Source of the DNA: Pseudomonadota bacterium
GTDB taxonomy: Bacteria; Pseudomonadota; Gammaproteobacteria; Xanthomonadales; Rhodanobacteraceae
Direction: 5' to 3'
Assembly (NCBI GenBank): GCA_029779475.1
Contig: JAKPAN010000323.1
Coordinates: forward strand, 1 to 33,582
DNA: 33,582 nucleotides
The notes beneath the pieces were generated by a model. It ran no database searches. It had not been told where the DNA came from and saw only the letters and a list, made by a program, of their open reading frames with translations. Position 1 is the first letter of the stretch; each line of letters begins with the position of its first letter. Below are positions 14,506-24,333 of this stretch, one piece after another. The position numbers were made by a program, and so were the translations under genes.

Positions 14506-15450
14506 ATGAAAGCATCGTTCCGCGTGATCGCCGCGACATGCCTGCTGATGCTGTTTGGATCCGCGCAAGCCAGCGACCTTGTGTTCCGCAACGGATTCGA
14601 TCCGGGCTTCCAGATCCAGACGCCGGACATCACGGTCGCGCCGGGCGCTGAGGAAATCTGGTGCTACTACTTCCGCACGCCGAATACCGACGTGGCCGGC
14701 GTGCGGCGCTGGGCCTCGCTGATGCAGCCGGGCATGGCGCATTTCATCGTCTATGCGGCCTACAGCAGCAGCTGGCAGCCTATTGAAATGGTGCCGCCTG
14801 GAACCTTGACCCAGACGCCATGCGGGCTGGGTACCGGAAGCACACTCCCGGGCTGGCTTTACTCGACGTATGCGCCTGCGGAGCAGATGGTCTTTCCCGA
14901 TACGGATGGCAGCGGTTCGCCCGTCGCCGCCGAGCTTCAAGCCGGCCAGCCCGTCTTCCTGCAAATGTTCGTGAGCAATTCCGGCACTGCGCCGCTGACG
15001 ACATCCGCGCTGCTCGAGGCCGAGACGCTGGGCACCGATCGGGTTTACACAAAGACGGCTTCGTATCTGGCCTTGAACACCAACATCGCCATCCCGGCCA
15101 TGGGCAGTGCGTCCGTGACGGCGACCTGCGTGTCGCCGCCGTTCACCAGCTTCTGGTGGCTGTCGACGCGCACGCATCGCTTTGCGACGCAGTCGAAGAT
15201 TTCCGACGGATCGACCACGCTCGTCGTCAGCGACGACTGGGCGCATCCGACCATCGCGCAGTTTTCGCCGGCAAACTTCCATGCGTTCCCGTCCAACGGC
15301 ATAACGCACGATTGCTCATACGTGAATCCGACCGCGAACGTGATCCAATACGGCGAGAGCGAGACGACCGACGAAACCTGCATGAGCATCGGTTTCTTCT
15401 TCCCGGCCGCGCATCCGGCGATCTGCTACAACGGCTCGGGGCCGTTCTGA
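14506..15450 (+). CDS. Secreted protein with a degenerate PHM-like copper-monooxygenase fold
   Basis: 314 aa. The signal peptide is about 1-22 (cut near AQA/S). The order of segments resembles copper type II ascorbate-dependent monooxygenases: YYFRTPN ... MQPGMAHFIVYA (N-domain), LQAGQPVFLQMFVSN, then LSTRTHRFATQSKISDG, HDCSYVN and GESETTDETCMSIGFFF (C-domain). The metal ligands are mostly absent: the HH pair reads AH (78-79), the third His position reads F (QMF, 153-155), HxH reads RTH (222-224) and the DEMC Met reads DETC (289-292). If the homology holds, it is a non-catalytic relative. DLVFRNGFD (24-32) just after the signal peptide recurs in altered form in the 19713 protein. ATG 14506 has GGGAGG upstream. 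Confidence 0.6.
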   Translation: MKASFRVIAATCLLMLFGSAQASDLVFRNGFDPGFQIQTPDITVAPGAEEIWCYYFRTPNTDVAGVRRWASLMQPGMAHFIVYAAYSSSWQPIEMVPPGTLTQTPCGLGTGSTLPGWLYSTYAPAEQMVFPDTDGSGSPVAAELQAGQPVFLQMFVSNSGTAPLTTSALLEAETLGTDRVYTKTASYLALNTNIAIPAMGSASVTATCVSPPFTSFWWLSTRTHRFATQSKISDGSTTLVVSDDWAHPTIAQFSPANFHAFPSNGITHDCSYVNPTANVIQYGESETTDETCMSIGFFFPAAHPAICYNGSGPF

Positions 15451-17254: not shown

Positions 17255-19069
17255 TCAGGATGCGACTGCGCGCCGCTGCGGCTCGTTTTCGCGCGCGAGC
17301 GATTCGGCGATGCGGCGCTGCTCGGCGCGCAGGCGCTCGGGCGTGCGCGTGCCGAAAGAGTCGAGATAGCGGCCGATGTCCTCGACTTCCGCGGCCCAGC
17401 CGTCGAGGTCGACGTCGAGCAGTTCGTCGAGCGCGCCGTCGCGCAGGGCGAGCCCTTCGACGTGCAGGTCGCTTTCGCGCGGCACGAAGCCGATCGGCGT
17501 TTCCTGCGCACCGGCCTTGCCGTCGCAGCGGTCGATGATCCATTCGAGCACGCGCAGGTTGTCGCCGAAGCCGGGCCACAGGAACTTGCCGTCGGCGCCC
17601 TTGCGGAACCAGTTGACGTGGAAGATCTTCGGCAGCTTCGCGCCGGCCTTGTCGAACGACAGCCAGTGCGCGAAGTAGTCGCCGTAGTTGTATCCGCAGA
17701 ACGGCTTCATCGCCATCGAATCGCGGCGCAATACGCCGACCGCGCCGGTCGCGGCGGCGGTCGTTTCCGAACCCATCGCGGCGCCGACGAGCACGCCATG
17801 CGCCCAGTCGCGCGCTTCGAACACGAGCGGCACGAGCGACGGACGGCGTCCGCCGAACACGATCGCACTGATCGGCACGCCTTGAGCGTCTTCGGCTTTC
17901 GGCGACCAGCTCGGCGCCTGTTTCGCGGACACGGTGAAGCGCGAATTCGGATGCGCGGCGGGGCCGTTCTTCGCGTCGTACGGACGGCCTTGCCAGTCGG
18001 TCGCGGGCGCGCCTTCGTGCAGGCCTTCCCACCACGGCTGGTTGTCGGCGGTGACGGCGACGTTGGTGAAGATCGTGTCGTGCTGGATCGAGGCGAGCGC
18101 GTTCGGGTTCGTGCTCTTGTCGGTGCCGGGCGCGACGCCGAAGAAACCGGCTTCCGGATTGATCGCGTACAAACGGCCGTCTGCGCCGGGGCGCATCCAG
18201 CAGATGTCGTCGCCGATCGTCCAGACCTTCCAGCCTTTCTCGCGATAACCCTCGGGCGGAATCAGCATCGCGAGATTGGTCTTGCCGCACGCGGACGGGA
18301 ACGCCGCGGCGACGTAATGCGTTTCGCCCTGCGGATTCTCGATGCCGACGATGAGCATGTGCTCGGCGAGCCAGCCTTCGCTTTTCGCCTGGAACGAGCC
18401 GATGCGCAGCGCGTGGCATTTCTTGCCGAGCAGCGCGTTGCCGCCGTAGCCGGAACCGTACGACTTGATCGTGAGTTCTTCCGGGAAATGCATGATGAAG
18501 CGGCGCTCGGGGTCGAGTTCGCCGATCGAGTGCAGGCCTTTGACGAACGCCGGCTGCGCGCCGCGCGCGAGCGCCTCGGAGCCTTCGCACTCGATGCGTG
18601 CGAGCGCCGGCGCGCCCATGCGCGTCATCACACGCATGTTGGCGACGACGTAGGGCGAATCGGTGATCTCGACGCCGCATCGCGAGATCGGCGAATCGAT
18701 CGGGCCCATGCAGTACGGGATCACATACATCGTGCGGCCCTTCATGCAGCCCGCGAACAGCGCGTCGATCTTCTCGTGCGCCGCGGCCGGATCCATCCAG
18801 TGGTTGTTCGGGCCGGCGTCTTCCTCGTGCTTCGTGCAGACCAGCGTCAGATGTTCGACGCGCGCCACGTCCGACGGATGCGAACGATGCAGCGTGCAGC
18901 CCGGATGCGTGTCCTGGTTGAGTTCGATCAGCGTGCCGTTGGCGAGCATCTGCGCGCGCAGCGCATTGGCTTCTGCGTCGGAACCGTCGCACCAATGGAC
19001 GCGGTCGGGTTGGGTCAGACGGGCGACGTCGTCGACCCATCGGTTGAGCGCTTCGAGACGGCTTGGCAT
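17255..19069 (-). CDS. pckG: Phosphoenolpyruvate carboxykinase (GTP)
   Basis: 604 aa, typical for GTP-PEPCK. It converts oxaloacetate and GTP to PEP, GDP and CO2, the entry to gluconeogenesis. Motifs: the P-loop with hyper-reactive cysteine FPSACGKTN at about 257-265, GDDICWMRP at about 286-294, YGSGYGGNALLGKKC (substrate and Mn region), FHVNWFRKG, and FCGYNYGDYFAHWL of the nucleotide site. ATG 19069 gives the usual N-terminus (MPSRLEALNRWVDD). An upstream in-frame TTG at 19099 is less likely, and neither has a strong Shine-Dalgarno. It lies 96 bp downstream of an XRE regulator gene on the same strand. A GTP-type enzyme rather than the ATP-type PckA is usual for Xanthomonadales. Confidence 0.97.
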   Translation of the reverse strand: MPSRLEALNRWVDDVARLTQPDRVHWCDGSDAEANALRAQMLANGTLIELNQDTHPGCTLHRSHPSDVARVEHLTLVCTKHEEDAGPNNHWMDPAAAHEKIDALFAGCMKGRTMYVIPYCMGPIDSPISRCGVEITDSPYVVANMRVMTRMGAPALARIECEGSEALARGAQPAFVKGLHSIGELDPERRFIMHFPEELTIKSYGSGYGGNALLGKKCHALRIGSFQAKSEGWLAEHMLIVGIENPQGETHYVAAAFPSACGKTNLAMLIPPEGYREKGWKVWTIGDDICWMRPGADGRLYAINPEAGFFGVAPGTDKSTNPNALASIQHDTIFTNVAVTADNQPWWEGLHEGAPATDWQGRPYDAKNGPAAHPNSRFTVSAKQAPSWSPKAEDAQGVPISAIVFGGRRPSLVPLVFEARDWAHGVLVGAAMGSETTAAATGAVGVLRRDSMAMKPFCGYNYGDYFAHWLSFDKAGAKLPKIFHVNWFRKGADGKFLWPGFGDNLRVLEWIIDRCDGKAGAQETPIGFVPRESDLHVEGLALRDGALDELLDVDLDGWAAEVEDIGRYLDSFGTRTPERLRAEQRRIAESLARENEPQRRAVAS

Positions 19070-19165
19070 GGCGATTGGCGTGCGATGACGCGTGGACAAA
19101 AGGAGACAAAAACGTAGCGATGGCCTTGGGGCATTGCAAGGCAGAGTGCGGAAAACCGCGGATTT

Positions 19166-19540
19166 TCAGCGCGAATCCGAGGGGATGAGTAAGTCGAGCA
19201 GCGCGGCTCGCCGCTTCGGCGGCAATGCGCGATAGCGCAGCAGCAACGCGCGCTCCTTGCTGTCGCGCGCCGCGGGTGTGGTGTCGTCGGCGAGGTACTC
19301 ACCGCTGCTGTCACGCACGGTCGTCCCGCGCGAGGAAGCGGACGCGCCGCAGATGAGTTCGTCGAGCGAACGTTTAAGCACGATGCGCATCTGCGGCAGG
19401 ATGCGGAAACTCGGCGTTTCGCGGCCGTTTTCCCAGGCAGAGATCGACGACTTCGTGACACCGAGCGCGAAGCCCAACTGCTCCTGCGTCAAGCCGGCGG
19501 CAATCCGCGCTTCGCGAAGGCGATCGGCGAAACGCTTCAT
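19166..19540 (-). CDS. XRE family HTH transcriptional regulator
   Basis: 124 aa. The N-terminal Cro/CI-type HTH covers about 5-60: RLREARIAAGLTQEQLGFALGVTKSSISAWENGRETPSF, with SSISAWENGR as recognition helix and turn. The rest (about 62-124) is polar, with a helical end (KERALLLRYRALPPKRRAALLDLL) that may dimerise or bind another protein. ATG 19540 is preceded by AGGA. It diverges from the 19713 gene, and the shared intergenic region contains a 23-bp palindrome (19607-19629) repeated before the 21652 gene, so it is the obvious candidate repressor of both units and perhaps of itself. A longer start at 19585 is possible. Confidence 0.85.
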   Translation of the reverse strand: MKRFADRLREARIAAGLTQEQLGFALGVTKSSISAWENGRETPSFRILPQMRIVLKRSLDELICGASASSRGTTVRDSSGEYLADDTTPAARDSKERALLLRYRALPPKRRAALLDLLIPSDSR

Positions 19541-19606
19541 CGGAAAAATCCTGCGCGAAGAGGTTTTCCGACGGTATGGGTGCATCGTCCCGCTGTCGTG
19601 CTGAAA

Positions 19607-19629
19607 TTCTTGACACTTTATGTTCGGAA
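19607..19629. promoter_or_regulatory. 23-bp palindromic operator, copy 1
   Basis: The arrangement is TTC-TTG-ACAC-TTT-ATGT-TCG-GAA, an inverted repeat of TTC-N3-ACAC with one mismatch in seven paired positions. It overlaps the -35 hexamer TTGACA (19610-19615) of the 19713 gene and lies 67 bp upstream of the divergent XRE start. A second, perfect copy lies at 21570-21592. The wider 35-bp blocks (19598-19632 and 21561-21595) agree at 25 positions by my alignment. Confidence 0.7.
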
Positions 19630-19636
19630 ATACAAT
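19610..19636 (+). promoter_or_regulatory. Predicted sigma-70 promoter of the secreted-protein operon
   Basis: A perfect -35 TTGACA (19610-19615) and a -10 TACAAT (19631-19636) are separated by 15 bp, slightly short. An alternative -10, CAATAT (19633-19638), gives 17 bp. The operator covers the -35, which suits repression. The leader to ATG 19713 would be about 70 nt. Confidence 0.65.
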
Positions 19637-19712
19637 ATCCGGCGGGCGCGCGATGGGACGTGCGCATGTCGATGGAGCCTGTTCCATCGGCACGGGGGGC
19701 AGGAGAAGGCAC

Positions 19713-20546
19713 ATGGCGCAGCGTCCGCGCGCTGAAAGGTTGTCCGTTGCCGGCATGGCCGGCCTCATCGTGGCCGTCATCGCTGCCGCCGGGGCGTTCG
19801 CGCCCGATGCGACTGCGTCGACCTGGCTGGATTCGTTCCAAGCCACTTTCGATACCGCGATCCGCACGGACGGCGCCGGTGTCCTCAAGCGCGGCCAGAT
19901 TTTGGTCAAGCGCTTTCAGGCCGCACCGGCGATCGTGGATACCGGCATTCCCGCCAACGTCCAGATCGGCGCGCTGGCCATCGACGGCGATACGGTGTTC
20001 TATGCGCCGGACGCAGCTTTCAAATTCGCTGGTTTGCCGGTGACGCCGCGCGATGTCGTGCGTCGCAATGCGAATGGCACCTCGACGATCTTCCTGCGCG
20101 GCAGTGACATGGGGCTGCCTGCCAATGTGAGGCTCGACGCGCTGGCACTGTCCGGTTCGGACGTTCTTTTCAGCGTGGACGCAGCGACCAAAATCGCAGG
20201 CACGTCGGTTTCGCCAGCCGACGTGCTGCGCTGGAACGGCAGCGCGGTTTCGATCCTCTATCCGGCGCATTCGCTCGGCATCGCGGCGGGCCTGAATCTC
20301 ACCGGGCTGGAGCGGCTCGCCAACGGTGATCTGTTGATGGCATTCGATACGGCTGGCCGCGTCGCGGAGGTTTCTTTCAAGGCGGGCGAGATTCTCCGCT
20401 ACGCGCCTTCGTCGGCGAACTGGTCGCTGGCGCTGAGTCAATCGCAGCTGGGTGTCCAGTGCAGCCCCTGCAAGCTCAACGATTTCGCGGCGAGCGGCAA
20501 CCCCGACGTCATTTTCCGCAGCGGCATGGAACGGTACGAGGACTGA
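19713..20546 (+). CDS. Secreted four-repeat protein of unknown function
   Basis: 277 aa. A hydrophobic segment at about 12-35 looks like a signal peptide or anchor. Four tandem repeats of roughly 50-57 residues follow (about 43-93, 94-150, 151-206, 207-263). Each has the pattern F/L-x-x-D-x-A ... V-x-x-x-D-[VI]-[LV]-R ... LG-[IL]-x-A-x-[VL]-x-L-x-[AG]-L ... GD; the layout suggests propeller-type blades. The C-terminus is DVIFRSGMERYED, similar to DLVFRNGFD in the 14506 protein. ATG 19713 has AGGAGA (19701-19706) upstream; an in-frame ATG at 19620 lies inside the promoter and is rejected. The next gene starts one base after the stop, so the two are coupled. No enzyme motif is visible. Confidence 0.75.
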   Translation: MAQRPRAERLSVAGMAGLIVAVIAAAGAFAPDATASTWLDSFQATFDTAIRTDGAGVLKRGQILVKRFQAAPAIVDTGIPANVQIGALAIDGDTVFYAPDAAFKFAGLPVTPRDVVRRNANGTSTIFLRGSDMGLPANVRLDALALSGSDVLFSVDAATKIAGTSVSPADVLRWNGSAVSILYPAHSLGIAAGLNLTGLERLANGDLLMAFDTAGRVAEVSFKAGEILRYAPSSANWSLALSQSQLGVQCSPCKLNDFAASGNPDVIFRSGMERYED

Positions 20547-20547
20547 C

Positions 20548-21456
20548 ATGAAAACGATGCATTGGATGGTGGTTGCGGTCGGCTTGACGATGGCCGGCCT
20601 GTGTCGCGCGGGCGACGGCGCGTTCGAGATCAATCAGGCGTGCGTGGACGTTGGCTGTTTTCCGGGGGATGCGCCGGGGCTGCCGGTGACGATCACCACG
20701 TCCGGGACTTATCGCTTGAGCAGCAACCTGACCGCGCCGGATACGGCGACTGGCGGAATCGTCGTCGCGGCCAACGACGTGACGATCGACCTCAACGGAT
20801 TCAGGGTCGTCGGGCCAATCGCGTGCAGCGGGACGCCGACGACGTGCACGCCCGCGATCAGCGGAGGAGGCGCTGCCGGGATCGATGCCTGGTCCTACAA
20901 TCCGACGAATCTCGTCGTCCGGAACGGCTCGATCACGGGCATGGGAACAGGGCTTTTGCTCAGTTACGACGGGCGTGCGGAAGGCATCAAGGCGATACAG
21001 AACGGTGACGCCGGAATTCGTGCGCGCGCCGGCGCGGCAGTCGTCAATTCCACGGGCACAGCGAACGGCAAGATCGGCATCGAAGGCGGATTGATCGACG
21101 GCTGCTCGGTATCGCGCAATCCGCAATACGGTCTCGCCGTGCAGGGCGACGGCGCCGTCGTGCGCAATGTCGTCGTCCAGGGAAATACCGGATACGGGAT
21201 CTATTTGACCAGTGGCGCCAGCGTCATTGGAGCCTCCGTCAGCGGGAACGACGTCGGGATTTTCGCCAATGGCGGATCCCAGATTCTCGATTCAGTGTTC
21301 AAAAACAACACGCACGTCGCCATCACGAACACGCAGGGCACGCTGGGCGTAGCGCGTTCCACCTTCGTGGGCAACAACGGCGGCGGTTTGCAATGGGGCG
21401 GCACGATCGTCGAACTGGCGCCGAACTTGTGCGGGACATCCATGGCGTGCCCATAG
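20548..21456 (+). CDS. Secreted right-handed parallel beta-helix repeat protein
   Basis: 302 aa. The signal peptide is about 1-21 (MKTMHWMVVAVGLTMAGLCRA). An N-terminal cap-like region (TITTSGTYRLSSNLTAPD ... GIVVAANDVTIDLNGF) is typical of pectate-lyase-fold or NosD-like proteins. Repeated turns follow: NLVVRNGSITGMG, EGIKAIQNGDAGI, GCSVSRNPQYGLAVQGDGAVVRNVVVQGN, TSGASVIGASVSGN, ILDSVFKNN and ARSTFVGNNGGG. Several cysteines near both ends could form disulfides. No catalytic residues of a named polysaccharide lyase can be assigned. ATG 20548 follows the previous stop by one base, with GAGG at 20538-20541, so it forms an operon with the four-repeat protein. Confidence 0.85.
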   Translation: MKTMHWMVVAVGLTMAGLCRAGDGAFEINQACVDVGCFPGDAPGLPVTITTSGTYRLSSNLTAPDTATGGIVVAANDVTIDLNGFRVVGPIACSGTPTTCTPAISGGGAAGIDAWSYNPTNLVVRNGSITGMGTGLLLSYDGRAEGIKAIQNGDAGIRARAGAAVVNSTGTANGKIGIEGGLIDGCSVSRNPQYGLAVQGDGAVVRNVVVQGNTGYGIYLTSGASVIGASVSGNDVGIFANGGSQILDSVFKNNTHVAITNTQGTLGVARSTFVGNNGGGLQWGGTIVELAPNLCGTSMACP

Positions 21457-21569
21457 CCCGGCATCGTCGGGTCTGACGGCTGTCGGGGAGACAGCAACCC
21501 GTAATCGGCGGAAACGCGCGCGTCCCATGAACGGTTGCGCCGAATTGGCTTGTTCCGAATGTGCGGGAA

Positions 21570-21592
21570 TTCAATACACATCGTGTTCGGAA
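21570..21592. promoter_or_regulatory. 23-bp palindromic operator, copy 2 (perfect arms)
   Basis: TTC-AAT-ACAC-ATC-GTGT-TCG-GAA: both the TTC/GAA and ACAC/GTGT pairs are exact. It ends 59 bp before the predicted TTG start at 21652. An additional TTCCGAA at 21553-21559 could be a half-site. The -35 corresponding to copy 1 reads AATACA, so this promoter is weaker or differently organised. The 78-bp interval 21457-21534 contains only weak hairpins. Confidence 0.7.
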
Positions 21593-21651
21593 AAAAACAT
21601 GCGAATGGCGCGCGCGAATACGTCGCCAAAACCGCGATCGAGGTACGAGCT

Positions 21652-23706
21652 TTGGAGATTCAATCGGCAGGCATACGCCGTTCCGGCGCCATCTTTTCCG
21701 CCGTGACGTACGGTGCAGCATTCGATCTGCTCTTGATCGCCATCGTGGCGCCCCTTGCGGCGATGCTATGCCTGTCGGGATGGGGGACGGACTTTCCTTT
21801 TAGCTCCGACGGCGTGATGCCGTACATATTGTTCGACGACTTCTTCAAGCACGGCGGGCGACCCGGCGCCTGGGTTTACCCGATAGCGCCCTACTGGTTT
21901 CCGGACACGGTCCTCGCATGGGCGATCCGTTCCTTCACTTCCGACATCTTCTCTTGCGTGTTCGCCTACGCGGTTATCCAGTCCGCGTTGTTCTTGCTGC
22001 TGACGCGCTGGGTGTTCGCGTGCATTGCCAAGAGCGAAGGGTCAACGTCGGCGCGAATCATGTGGCTGTTGTGGCTTCTCGGATGGGTCGCGCTGGTTGC
22101 CGTCGGCGCACGCAATCCCGTGAGCTGGTATGCATGGCTTTATCGATACGTCTTCTATCCGAACATCCATTCGGGGACTCTGCTCGTCGCGTTGCTCGGC
22201 ATCGGTGTCTGGATCAAGGCGAGTGCTGCGCAGAGCGTGCGAGGCACCGTTGCACTGTCCTTGCTATGTTTCGCAGCCTTGATTTCCGATCAGGCGTTCG
22301 CGCTTTGGTTCATCGTACCGGCGTGCGCCGCGCTGCTCGTCCCGGGGCATGCGGCGCGCTGGCGCTGGCTCGCGGCCGGATCCATGGCGTCCGCTTTCAT
22401 TGCCTATCGCATTCTCCGATTTCTCATGCCGTCGACATTCTTCGGCGCCGCGTTGTTGCCGGAGCCGAACCTAGCCCGATCCAGCATGGAAACCATCTTT
22501 GCCGATCTATGGCAATTGCTGTCCCATGACTGGATATTTTCGCTCTATGAGGGAGCGGTATTCGCGACGCTGGCCTACTTATCGTTGATATCGTGGCGCT
22601 CGAGAAAGGTGTCCATGACATCGGACAGGATGTTTCGCCTTTCGGTGTTTCTGTTCATATCGATTGCCCTTCCCGTCATTGCATCGATCGCGCTGGGCCG
22701 TCACGCGAACTTGACTGCGTTCCGCTACTACCAGCCTTTGTGCCTTGCGGGTCTGGTGATTCCGATTGCGTTGCGTCCCTGGTTGCAACGCTTCGAACGG
22801 ACTTTGTCGGTAGCTTTGCCCGTGCTTGCCGTCGCGGTCATGATGGTCGCGGGCTACTCGTCCAAATCGTGGCCGTTCGGTTCTTTCCGGATCCCCGATG
22901 CGCGATCGGCGCAGATCGAATGCGAGCGGGGTCTCATCAGCAGATACCACGCGCGCGTGGGGTTTGCCGAGTACTGGAACACGATGTCCGTCATGGCCCG
23001 CATTCCGAAATTGACGCTCGTTCCTCTGCGCGCTTCCGATCTCCATCCAAGCACCATGCTCAATACCAATCTCGATTGGCTGTCCCCGTCCCGTCGCCCG
23101 GATGCGGGCGATATCGAGATTCTCGACGAGGGCGCGCTTGATTCCGGTCAAATGGATGCTCTCTTCGGGGCGCCTGACGAAAGAGTAGTCTGCCCGCAGT
23201 CGGCGATCCGGATCTATCGAACCAGGAATGGACGACCGAGCCTTCTCGCCAAGCTGCACGATCGTTTCGCTTGGGCAACGACCTTCCAGAGGTTTCAGGT
23301 CACGGGCGAAGTCGACGTGCCGGCTTCTGCCTGGTCGACTGATCCGAGTCTGGATCGAGGCGACGTCATCGTCGTCGCAGGGGACTATCCGAACCGGACC
23401 GAAGTGCTCTCCGTTGCGTCGGACATGAATCCCGATGCCGAGGAAATGTGGATCGACTATGAAGTCGAATCGGCTGCGCCGGATGCGGCTCTTGCGTTCG
23501 AGCTGTACGAGTTGAACGAGTCCGGTTCCCTCGTGCGTGTCCTCGGCAAAAGCAGCCTGCCTCTGGCACCCGGAAACAAACACCAGACAGTGTCCAAGTT
23601 CCGCAATCTTTCTGGCCCTTCGGAGATGCCGAAGCAGGTCGGCATGCGGGTCACGGCTTCCGGTCGCATGAAGGCGGTCATTAAGTCCATTGGTTGGCGT
23701 CGCTGA
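21652..23706 (+). CDS. Large polytopic membrane protein of unknown function with a C-terminal soluble domain
   Basis: 684 aa from TTG 21652, preceded by GAGG (21640-21643). About nine or ten hydrophobic segments fill residues ~14-402 (LLLIAIVAPLAAMLCL; AVIQSALFLLLTRWVF; IMWLLWLLGWVALVAVG; LSLLCFAALISDQAFALWFIVPACAALL; LSVALPVLAVAVMMVAGY). The first loop has S-S-D-G-V-M-P-Y and PIAPYWFPDT, a layout like GT-C-type membrane proteins with an acidic first loop, but no known glycosyltransferase family is recognised. Residues ~403-684 are soluble and probably partly beta-rich. ATA, CTA and GGA codons and a lower GC set it apart from its neighbours, a sign of transfer. In-frame ATG 21559 is an alternative start but would put the operator inside the gene. 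Confidence 0.75.
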   Translation: MEIQSAGIRRSGAIFSAVTYGAAFDLLLIAIVAPLAAMLCLSGWGTDFPFSSDGVMPYILFDDFFKHGGRPGAWVYPIAPYWFPDTVLAWAIRSFTSDIFSCVFAYAVIQSALFLLLTRWVFACIAKSEGSTSARIMWLLWLLGWVALVAVGARNPVSWYAWLYRYVFYPNIHSGTLLVALLGIGVWIKASAAQSVRGTVALSLLCFAALISDQAFALWFIVPACAALLVPGHAARWRWLAAGSMASAFIAYRILRFLMPSTFFGAALLPEPNLARSSMETIFADLWQLLSHDWIFSLYEGAVFATLAYLSLISWRSRKVSMTSDRMFRLSVFLFISIALPVIASIALGRHANLTAFRYYQPLCLAGLVIPIALRPWLQRFERTLSVALPVLAVAVMMVAGYSSKSWPFGSFRIPDARSAQIECERGLISRYHARVGFAEYWNTMSVMARIPKLTLVPLRASDLHPSTMLNTNLDWLSPSRRPDAGDIEILDEGALDSGQMDALFGAPDERVVCPQSAIRIYRTRNGRPSLLAKLHDRFAWATTFQRFQVTGEVDVPASAWSTDPSLDRGDVIVVAGDYPNRTEVLSVASDMNPDAEEMWIDYEVESAAPDAALAFELYELNESGSLVRVLGKSSLPLAPGNKHQTVSKFRNLSGPSEMPKQVGMRVTASGRMKAVIKSIGWRR

Positions 23707-23751: not shown

Positions 23752-24333
23752 TCACCGCGGAATCAGCGTCTCCATGAAATCCCCGATGTAATCCTCGAAT
23801 TCCTCATGCGTCATGCGCGGCTGCCCGATCTGGGCGAGTTGCACGAAACCGACGTAGGCGGAGTAGGCGAGGCGGGCGCGGTTGGCGGCGGTGTTCGCGT
23901 CGAAGCCGGCTTGGCGGAACGCGTCGGTGACGAAGTCGATGCGCCGCTGCGAGACGCGCTCGACGAGCGGCCCGATCAACGGCTGGTCGATCGCCTTGAA
24001 CAGCGCCGCGAAGATCGCATGCGACTGGCGTTTGTGGCTGACCTGGCGGATCAGTTCGCGCAGGCGTTCGCGCGGGTCGGTGACGGTCGCGGTCGGCGCG
24101 AGCACCTGCTCCTCGTCGTCGTGTTCCCAGCGTTCGATCGTGGCCTGGATCAACGCCTCGCGCGTCGGGAAATGCCAGTAGAAGCTGCCCTTGGTCACGC
24201 CGAGGCGTCGCGCGAGCGGTTCGACGGCGACCGCGGCGAGGCCGTTTTCGGCCAGCGTTTCGAGCGCGGCGCGTTCCCAGTCTGCGGCGGACAGGTGCGC
24301 TTTCGGTTCGATTTTTGTGATTTTCGTCGCCAT
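23752..24333 (-). CDS. TetR family transcriptional regulator, divergent to fadE
   Basis: 193 aa. The N-terminal HTH is at about 34-56 (VAVEPLARRLGVTKGSFYWHFPTREALIQATIERWE), with the hallmark GSFYWHF recognition helix. The C-terminal ligand domain is helical. ATG 24333 gives a short leader before the HTH. It diverges from fadE across a 144-bp intergenic region that holds a promoter and a 7-bp inverted repeat over its -10 element. By analogy with PsrA/FadR-type TetR repressors, long-chain acyl-CoA is the likely inducer; the ligand is inferred from the neighbouring gene only. Confidence 0.9.
   Translation of the reverse strand: MATKITKIEPKAHLSAADWERAALETLAENGLAAVAVEPLARRLGVTKGSFYWHFPTREALIQATIERWEHDDEEQVLAPTATVTDPRERLRELIRQVSHKRQSHAIFAALFKAIDQPLIGPLVERVSQRRIDFVTDAFRQAGFDANTAANRARLAYSAYVGFVQLAQIGQPRMTHEEFEDYIGDFMETLIPR

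Follow-up and report, generated by a model that had tools for sequence, protein, structure and literature searches.

A small XRE repressor gene and a 24-bp-phased array of putative 17-bp operators, in a layout resembling a lambda/P22-type immunity switch

A stretch of 33,582 nucleotides from a bacterium of the Rhodanobacteraceae (assembly GCA_029779475.1, contig JAKPAN010000323.1; hereafter the window, meaning the whole stretch analysed) carries a small XRE-type repressor gene that faces an operon for secreted proteins, beyond which lies a gene for a large membrane protein. The initial annotation of this DNA drew attention to a 23-bp palindrome in front of the operon and of the membrane-protein gene. 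In the current work, we find that the region between the XRE gene and the operon holds a tandem array whose likely unit is a 17-bp dyad, approximately GTNNGG-N5-CCNNAC, repeated every 24 bp, and that all loci examined have such an array immediately 5' of their XRE relative. We think it likely that the XRE protein is an autoregulated repressor of the lambda/P22 type, which acts on these tandem 17-bp operators and also controls the neighbouring unit.

The locus and its repeats

The features of the locus are as follows.

17255..19099, minus strand: gene for a GTP-type phosphoenolpyruvate (PEP) carboxykinase, downstream of the XRE gene; context only
19166..19540, minus strand: XRE-type repressor gene, 124 aa; HTH_3 match, alignment and AlphaFold model
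19574..19590: candidate operator O1 (site A), GTATGGGTGCATCGTCC; in the window genome, its left half is good and its right half weak
19598..19614: candidate operator O2 (site B), GTGCTGAAATTCTTGAC; the −35-like box of the secreted-protein operon, TTGACA, falls largely within its right half
19607..19629: palindrome 1 of the initial annotation; runs from the right half of O2 across the 7-bp gap to the left half of O3
19622..19638: candidate operator O3 (site C), GTTCGGAAATACAATAT; overlaps, in its right half, with the presumed −10 region
19713..20546, plus strand: predicted secreted protein, 277 aa, from the list of open reading frames; first gene of the unit facing XRE
20548..21456, plus strand: predicted secreted right-handed beta-helix protein, 302 aa; Pfam Beta_helix, 2.4e-12
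21561..21577: candidate operator O4, GTGCGGGAATTCAATAC; 5' of the membrane-protein gene
21570..21592: palindrome 2 of the initial annotation; runs from the right half of O4 across the 7-bp gap to the left half of O5
21585..21601: candidate operator O5, GTTCGGAAAAAAACATG; perfect left half (GTTCGG) exactly 24 bp past O4, right half absent
21652..23706, plus strand: large membrane-protein gene, about 684 aa; start assumed at the in-frame TTG at 21652

Three of the candidate operators (O1–O3, 19574–19638) separate the XRE gene from the secreted-protein operon; the membrane-protein gene is preceded by a single full copy and a half copy (O4 and O5, 21561–21601). O1 is spaced 24 bp from O2 and touches what is presumed to be the −10 of the XRE promoter.

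Both 23-mers match the palindromic pattern of the initial annotation without mismatch; read on the opposite strand, the first (site 1, 19607–19629) has one mismatch and the second (site 2, 21570–21592) none. The TTGACA −35 box described under site 1 is present at 19610–19615, and site 1 indeed sits in the divergent region of the XRE gene, between its start (19540) and the secreted-protein operon. The 35-bp blocks around the sites, said to agree at 25 positions, agree at 26 in the best alignment; when the mononucleotides of both upstream regions were shuffled 200 times, the maximum averaged 19.2 (sd 1.1) and reached 24 at most. When the 3.23-Mb assembly (86.7% complete) was scanned with the 23-bp pattern at up to one mismatch, only these two sites were returned, and the backwards-read control gave none. 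At up to three mismatches the 23-mer is not rare in the window (five matches, 2.3 expected; 15 of 100 shuffles reach five), and we therefore rely on the two perfect matches, on the extended block around them and on conservation.

Conservation and specificity of the array

A scan of 84,980 species yielded 204 relatives of the XRE protein, the best 80 of which were listed. The group used here comprises 22 loci (L082–L103; 48–70% identity, E up to 5e-27), the other 58 listed (28–49%, E 2e-13 or worse) being dropped. Together with the window and genome G006, these make 24 bacterial regions. G006 came in unlooked for; there, an array of the O1–O3 type adjoins what may be the start of an XRE gene, which passes into transposase sequence. 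In the aligned upstream regions, three half-sites follow each other at 24-bp steps: first (A/G)TATGG, then GTNCGG, for which the Xanthomonas group has GTACAG, and last GTTCGG. Each has its inverted half after five bases. Counting simple-dyad windows (at least 6 of 10 positions) in 23 regions gave 58 pairs at 24 bp, 39 at 48 bp and 31 at 72 bp. With G006 added, the 24-bp count is 60, whereas 200 dinucleotide shuffles gave 5.8 on average (sd 2.4) and 12 at most, and the next peaks are again at 48 and 72 bp.

Leave-group-out matrices were used to rank the sites within their own regions. Site C is among the top four in all 24 regions, whereas site B is there in 22, site A in 17 and an additional, fourth site (D) in 11. 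No region has fewer than two of these sites, and all 22 relatives have two or more operators 5' of the XRE relative. All four operators are plain in Xanthomonas nasturtii (L101), where they read GTATGGTGAATCCGCAC, GTGCGGCAGTGCTTGAC, GTTCGGAAATACAATAC and GTTCTGGAACCCCGGAC. Among 17 later loci, found as XRE carriers in genomes of the order, C is in the top four in 17, B in 16 and A in 15. In their upstream regions, nine of these share more than 97% identity with a member of the 22-locus group and five share 92–96%; the distinct ones, L207, L213 and L216 (71, 41 and 56% identity), all have the array, L207 without a good B. Two loci (L094, 9250–9750; G480:C64, 29159–30160) were seen to hold two XRE copies each, and the second copy of L094 has an array of its own with one 31-bp step.

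The 23-mer behaves differently. Across 26 upstream regions (the 24 bacterial ones, window included, and two viral ones), it is matched within one mismatch in the window only, within two in three regions and within three in 13. The nearest XRE relative among 61 genomes, that of G010 (69% identity), belongs to the same genus as the window organism and also lies beside a PEP carboxykinase gene; its upstream region reads GCTTGACAGATTAAGTTCGGAAATACGATAC as compared with TCTTGACACTTTATGTTCGGAAATACAATAT in the window, with the palindrome arms TTC and ACAC lost and the remainder retained. The pattern TTGACA-N4-A-N-GTTCGGAA, derived from these two genomes, occurs in them alone among 233 genomes of the family. 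Thus, relatives that keep the gene do not keep the 23-mer as written, and what they conserve are the half-sites and the 24-bp spacing. On this lack of conservation, we rejected the 23-mer as the operator.

A symmetric matrix was then built from 63 operators of 21 loci, at positions set by hand after viewing the arrays. L085 (Dokdonella) was left out, and no sequence labelled Dokdonella entered the matrix. Over the 33,566 window positions, the three best are O3 (19622, score 15.8), O2 (19598, 15.4) and O4 (21561, 14.4), the fourth scoring 10.1. Since a matrix made without sequence labelled Dokdonella ranks O4 third, the site at the membrane-protein gene was recovered unaided. In 128,871 positions of other, mostly same-genus sequence, a single match outside arrays reaches 12 (score 13.6). 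The single-operator scan of the window's own genome returned 12 matches against four in the backwards control. None of the nine other matches has a 24-bp partner among the four best positions of its 2–3-kb locus (one has a weak partner, 4.5, at 25 bp), and single hits were therefore not used as evidence.

The pattern for the pair O4/O5 is GTNCGG-N5-YHWKAC-N7-GTTCGG. Without mismatch it occurs in 3 of 31 genomes, at window site 2, in G010 and in G006. It is exact in 4 of 398 genomes of the order, all four among the 18 that carry the XRE family (E up to 1e-25), and in none of those without the family; three of the matches immediately precede an XRE gene, and the remaining one is window site 2. 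As known arrays guided the design of the pattern, and those three matches repeat such arrays (G010 is L085, G475 is like L093, G503 like L101), the co-occurrence of sites and XRE gene for which the initial annotation proposed to look is seen here as specificity, not as independent co-occurrence. The exact pattern is missing from 14 of the 18 XRE-family genomes because the half-sites drift. A genome-wide regulon was considered and rejected: at up to one mismatch, the pair pattern gives only three places in the window's own genome, namely site 1, site 2 and C201:51473, the last of which falls in a long mechanical reading frame.

The XRE protein and how the repeats are read

The XRE protein belongs to HTH_3 (Pfam, 54 bits, 1.7e-14; cut-off 23), with a lambda/P22-type helix-turn-helix (HTH) domain at residues 4–64 and a pair of C-terminal helices at 94–118. 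Its AlphaFold model (mean pLDDT 77.4) has a five-helix HTH domain, a low-confidence stretch at 69–88 and the C-terminal helix pair. The best fold matches in the PDB are the DNA-binding domains of the P22 c2 repressor (top), C.AhdI and ImmR, and the sequence profile matches include the P22 c2 and 434 repressors. Residues T29, K30, S32, S34, A35, W36, E37 and N38 are invariant in all 23 aligned bacterial rows, an alignment in which the C-terminal part of L100 looks out of frame. RstR of the CTX phage and DicA, also small XRE repressors, are among the best NCBIfam matches. However, the scores (41.2 bits for NF041951 and 35.6 bits for NF007257) are far below the curated cut-offs of 80 and 101, and the window protein is therefore a member of neither model. 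It matches 16 PADLOC models, mostly through the HTH only and with 34 bits at best (the capH match spans residues 2–96), and does not qualify as one of the defence regulators RmrA, CapH or the restriction-modification control proteins. The locus is not a type II toxin-antitoxin pair with an XRE antitoxin, the next gene on the XRE strand being that for PEP carboxykinase.

We propose that a dimer of the XRE protein binds the tandem 17-bp dyads between its own gene and the divergent operon, and that adjacent dimers probably cooperate. O1 would touch the XRE gene's own presumed −10, O2 the −35-like boxes of both promoters, and O3 would lie on the presumed −10 of the operon. With O2 and O3 filled, the secreted-protein operon would be off; with O1 filled, the repressor gene would be off. 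O4 and O5, 2 kb away, would bring the membrane-protein gene under the same repressor. The putative promoter boxes are taken from the alignment: most relatives have TTGAC(A/T) at the end of O2 and a −10-like CAATAC(T) at the end of C, and TGTCGT 5' of O2 fits the −35 of the XRE promoter.

Regarding the register, the initial annotation took the 23-bp palindrome for the operator. The conserved unit is more likely the 17-bp dyad every 24 bp, with the palindrome as the junction of two units, and a dimer would probably occupy this dyad. The alternative is a dimer on a gap-centred dyad of about 19–23 bp (right half, N7, left half), one per promoter. The same half-sites can indeed be joined across the 7-bp gap. 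The column statistics, from 22 of the 26 regions (the irregular arrays L082, L083, L098 and L100 left out), show gap-centred symmetry of the outer bases in 0.78 and 0.86 of the weighted rows at distances 4 and 5; they also show a poorly kept 17-mer interior in A and B (0.06–0.68 bits at positions 7–11), and a mean for gap AB (0.98) above that for A (0.61). In addition, window site 2 has exactly one complete gap-centred pair, and three loci have an inner spacing of N6, namely L082 and L083 in site B and L086 in site A. Against this, the interior of C is conserved (0.81–1.23 bits at positions 7–11) and gap BC is lower (mean 0.55). Furthermore, the gap varies in length around intact 17-mers, being 13 in L095, 14 in the second L094 array, and 6 in L098, in L100 and before D in L082, L083 and L086. 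Five arrays (the first of the window, L085, G006, L084 and L087) end in a complete C with no half following, with the caveat that C shares bases of its right half with the −10 region as well. Finally, the lambda operators are 17 bp long, the length of the unit proposed here (PMC4997575). On balance, the gap-centred register appears unlikely.

A second alternative holds that the repeats are merely the conserved −35 and −10 boxes of two divergent promoters and have no operator function. The right halves of B and C do coincide with TTGAC and the −10 region, and TGTCGT before B fits an XRE −35. Promoter function, however, gives no meaning to the left halves, to the phasing at 24 bp or to the additional copies A and D, and D, which ranks in the top four in 11 of the 24 arrays, lies downstream of the −10; we regard this explanation as very improbable. 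That another regulator of the genome binds the array, with the XRE neighbour as a passenger, is equally hard to sustain, since the array stays directly upstream of the XRE family in Xanthomonas, Pseudoxanthomonas, Tahibacter, Rudaea, Pseudomonas and viral contigs where the other neighbours differ, and the exact pair is absent from every order genome without the family.

Several observations weigh against an XRE repressor acting on tandem 17-bp operators at both units. First, some sites are weak or inconstant. O1 is only fourth in its own 260-bp region (score 1.3, leave-group-out matrix) and 303rd in the window (1.2, non-Dokdonella matrix); O5, a left half only, scores −1.9 as a full operator; and A and D miss the top four in 7 and 13 of the 24 regions, respectively. 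Second, three other single 17-mers of the genome reach 15.7, 15.4 and 14.6, as high as O4 (they lie in C144, where a likely start codon is covered, in C306, within a long mechanical frame, and in C224). The case for O4 is therefore carried by its position and by the perfect half-site GTTCGG 24 bp on. Third, a strict sigma-70 scan of 19500–21700 returned no promoter, so the promoter boxes are readings from conservation, and part of the conservation of B and C would be expected from promoters alone. Fourth, viral relatives differ at recognition-helix positions that are kept in bacteria (S29 and D35 in L190). Fifth, homologues of the membrane protein in G007 and G031 lack the operator, L186 and L187 giving no operator match above 10.3. 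These homologues are few: 4 of 230 genomes matched, the window's own included, with 30% identity in G007, 38% in G031 and a weak partial match in G218. The membrane-protein gene is thus no stable member of the regulated set. The prediction of one regulator for two adjacent units stands as far as sites occur at both promoters and the XRE protein is very probably that regulator.

Likeness to phage switches and the facing genes

The initial annotation saw a self-contained regulon of a kind that it did not recognise. The layout, however, resembles an immunity switch of the lambda/P22 type. The HTH fold is closest to that of P22 c2, and three operators, with promoter boxes inside, separate divergent genes. 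In lambda, the operators of O_R are spaced by 24 and 23 bp. The window likewise has several similar dyad operators of 16–18 bp in tandem between divergent genes, one of which is the repressor gene, although O1 is weak. Unlike lambda, the repressor has only about 120 residues and is therefore too short for a LexA-like cleavage domain; a fourth operator, D, ranks among the top four in 11 of the 24 arrays; and no cro or phage gene is among the annotated genes of the window. A Cro-like divergent gene faces the repressor in L191, L192 and L005 of G028, and in the window its place is taken by a secreted protein without family match. The array would thus work like a lambda-type switch and, because the Cro-like gene is missing in the window, is not a strict member of that class.

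Other systems offer partial parallels. The PaaR2-YdaS/T immunity region of CP-933P, reported to be bistable, also has a CI-like XRE protein, several operators between divergent units and control over other genes (PMC8630535). Unlike the window, with only repressor and array and with a partner that varies among relatives, CP-933P is a recognisable prophage with Cro- and CII-like partners. The immB region of phiKO2/N15 similarly has three tandem operators with overlapping promoters between the repressor and a divergent gene, and differs in its 16-bp operators, its T-A-N10-T-A motif and its telomere phages (PMC4997575). LfsT of Pseudomonas aeruginosa was rejected as a counterpart, its motif being different (PMC9769523). 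The titles and abstract beginnings of the open-access matches listed, a coverage outside which subscription journals fall, contain no description of this XRE family or array.

Viral relatives provide a closer comparison. Six viral loci in IMG/VR matched with an XRE relative, and we examined L190–L192, leaving out L193–L195 (35–45%). L190 and L191, which share the same XRE (55%), and L192 (47%) have operators at 24–25-bp steps with scores of 8.3–13.6. As in lambda, a Cro-like HTH gene faces the repressor in L191 and L192 (77 or 73 aa, start at +106), followed by a serine recombinase (phrog_95 integrase, 2.9e-44 and 2e-43). In addition, L191 gave a match to a holin and L192 one to a virion protein. 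The bacterial locus L005 of G028 (49% over residues 1–82) has a like gene order, with an HTH_3 protein and a Resolvase domain; its operators look different by eye. In an XRE tree of 30 rows (L100 left out), the two viral copies group (97/85), the backbone is not resolved and no direction between phage and bacteria emerges. Plasmids gave one distant XRE match and phage records five, none covering 80%. We consider that repressor and array probably share ancestry with phages. A mobile-element origin of the window locus itself was tried and dropped, with no tRNA found and no phage or recombinase gene among seven proteins scanned with Pfam.

The gene that faces XRE, taken by hand as the first plausible frame, changes from lineage to lineage. 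In the window it is the 277-aa secreted protein (19713..20546; no match in Pfam, searched with a longer frame, NCBIfam or PADLOC), followed by the beta-helix protein. In G010 it is a PoyD-type epimerase (421.5 bits, cut-off 325), in G006 (L164, G006:C17, 1278–2879) a DUF3309 protein, the possible XRE start there running into an rve-type transposase region. Ankyrin and TonB_C proteins occupy the position in Tahibacter and Pseudoxanthomonas CF125, respectively, a trypsin/adhesin-like protein in L095, a PAS-GGDEF protein in L087 and a transketolase in L083 (L082 similar by eye). Six Xanthomonas loci (L088–L091, L096, L097) share similar frames of 65–73 aa at about 225–500 bases from the XRE start, and the two tested (L090, L089) have no Pfam match. 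By eye, lipoprotein-like or secreted facing products recur in L093, L095, L098, L099 and L101, which hints that envelope targets are preferred. The membrane-protein gene product matched nothing in Pfam, NCBIfam or PADLOC, and the three proteins neighbouring XRE nothing in PADLOC.

Some further observations were made along the way. In Dokdonella BIN16 (L060, G010:C4, 13789–15318), the PoyD-type radical SAM peptide epimerase starts the XRE-facing unit and is followed by frames resembling membrane, HlyD and ABC proteins by eye, a possible export locus for a ribosomally synthesised and post-translationally modified peptide (RiPP). Upstream of the PEP carboxykinase gene (pckG), only the window genome and G010 show the XRE motif among 16 genomes of the genus; a TetR-like motif is seen there in 11 of the 14 others (L067–L081), and the window has a similar TetR-like frame 5 kb away (23752–24333, minus strand). 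The predicted secreted proteins at 14506–15447 and 19713–20546 share a similar short motif, D-L-V-F-R-N-G-F-D and D-V-I-F-R-S-G-M-E, which is close to the N-terminus of one protein and to the C-terminus of the other.

Tentatively, and with more doubt than for the repressor itself, a phage immunity switch might have turned into a portable bacterial cassette of repressor and 24-bp array, with the cro position refilled in each lineage and with the ability to seed extra operators at a neighbouring gene. The refills would be the secreted beta-helix operon, the PoyD-type RiPP epimerase, DUF3309, an ankyrin protein or TonB_C lipoprotein, PAS-GGDEF and the recurrent 65-aa frame. Under such a cassette, the expression of surface or secreted products may still be bistable, with on and off states that are inherited.

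What began as a guessed motif has become a family with a proposed binding code, consisting of a repressor, a 17-bp operator and a 24-bp phase, which is testable in Dokdonella, Tahibacter, Xanthomonas, Pseudoxanthomonas and their relatives. If the switch came from phages, it would be a viral decision circuit reused for ordinary genes.

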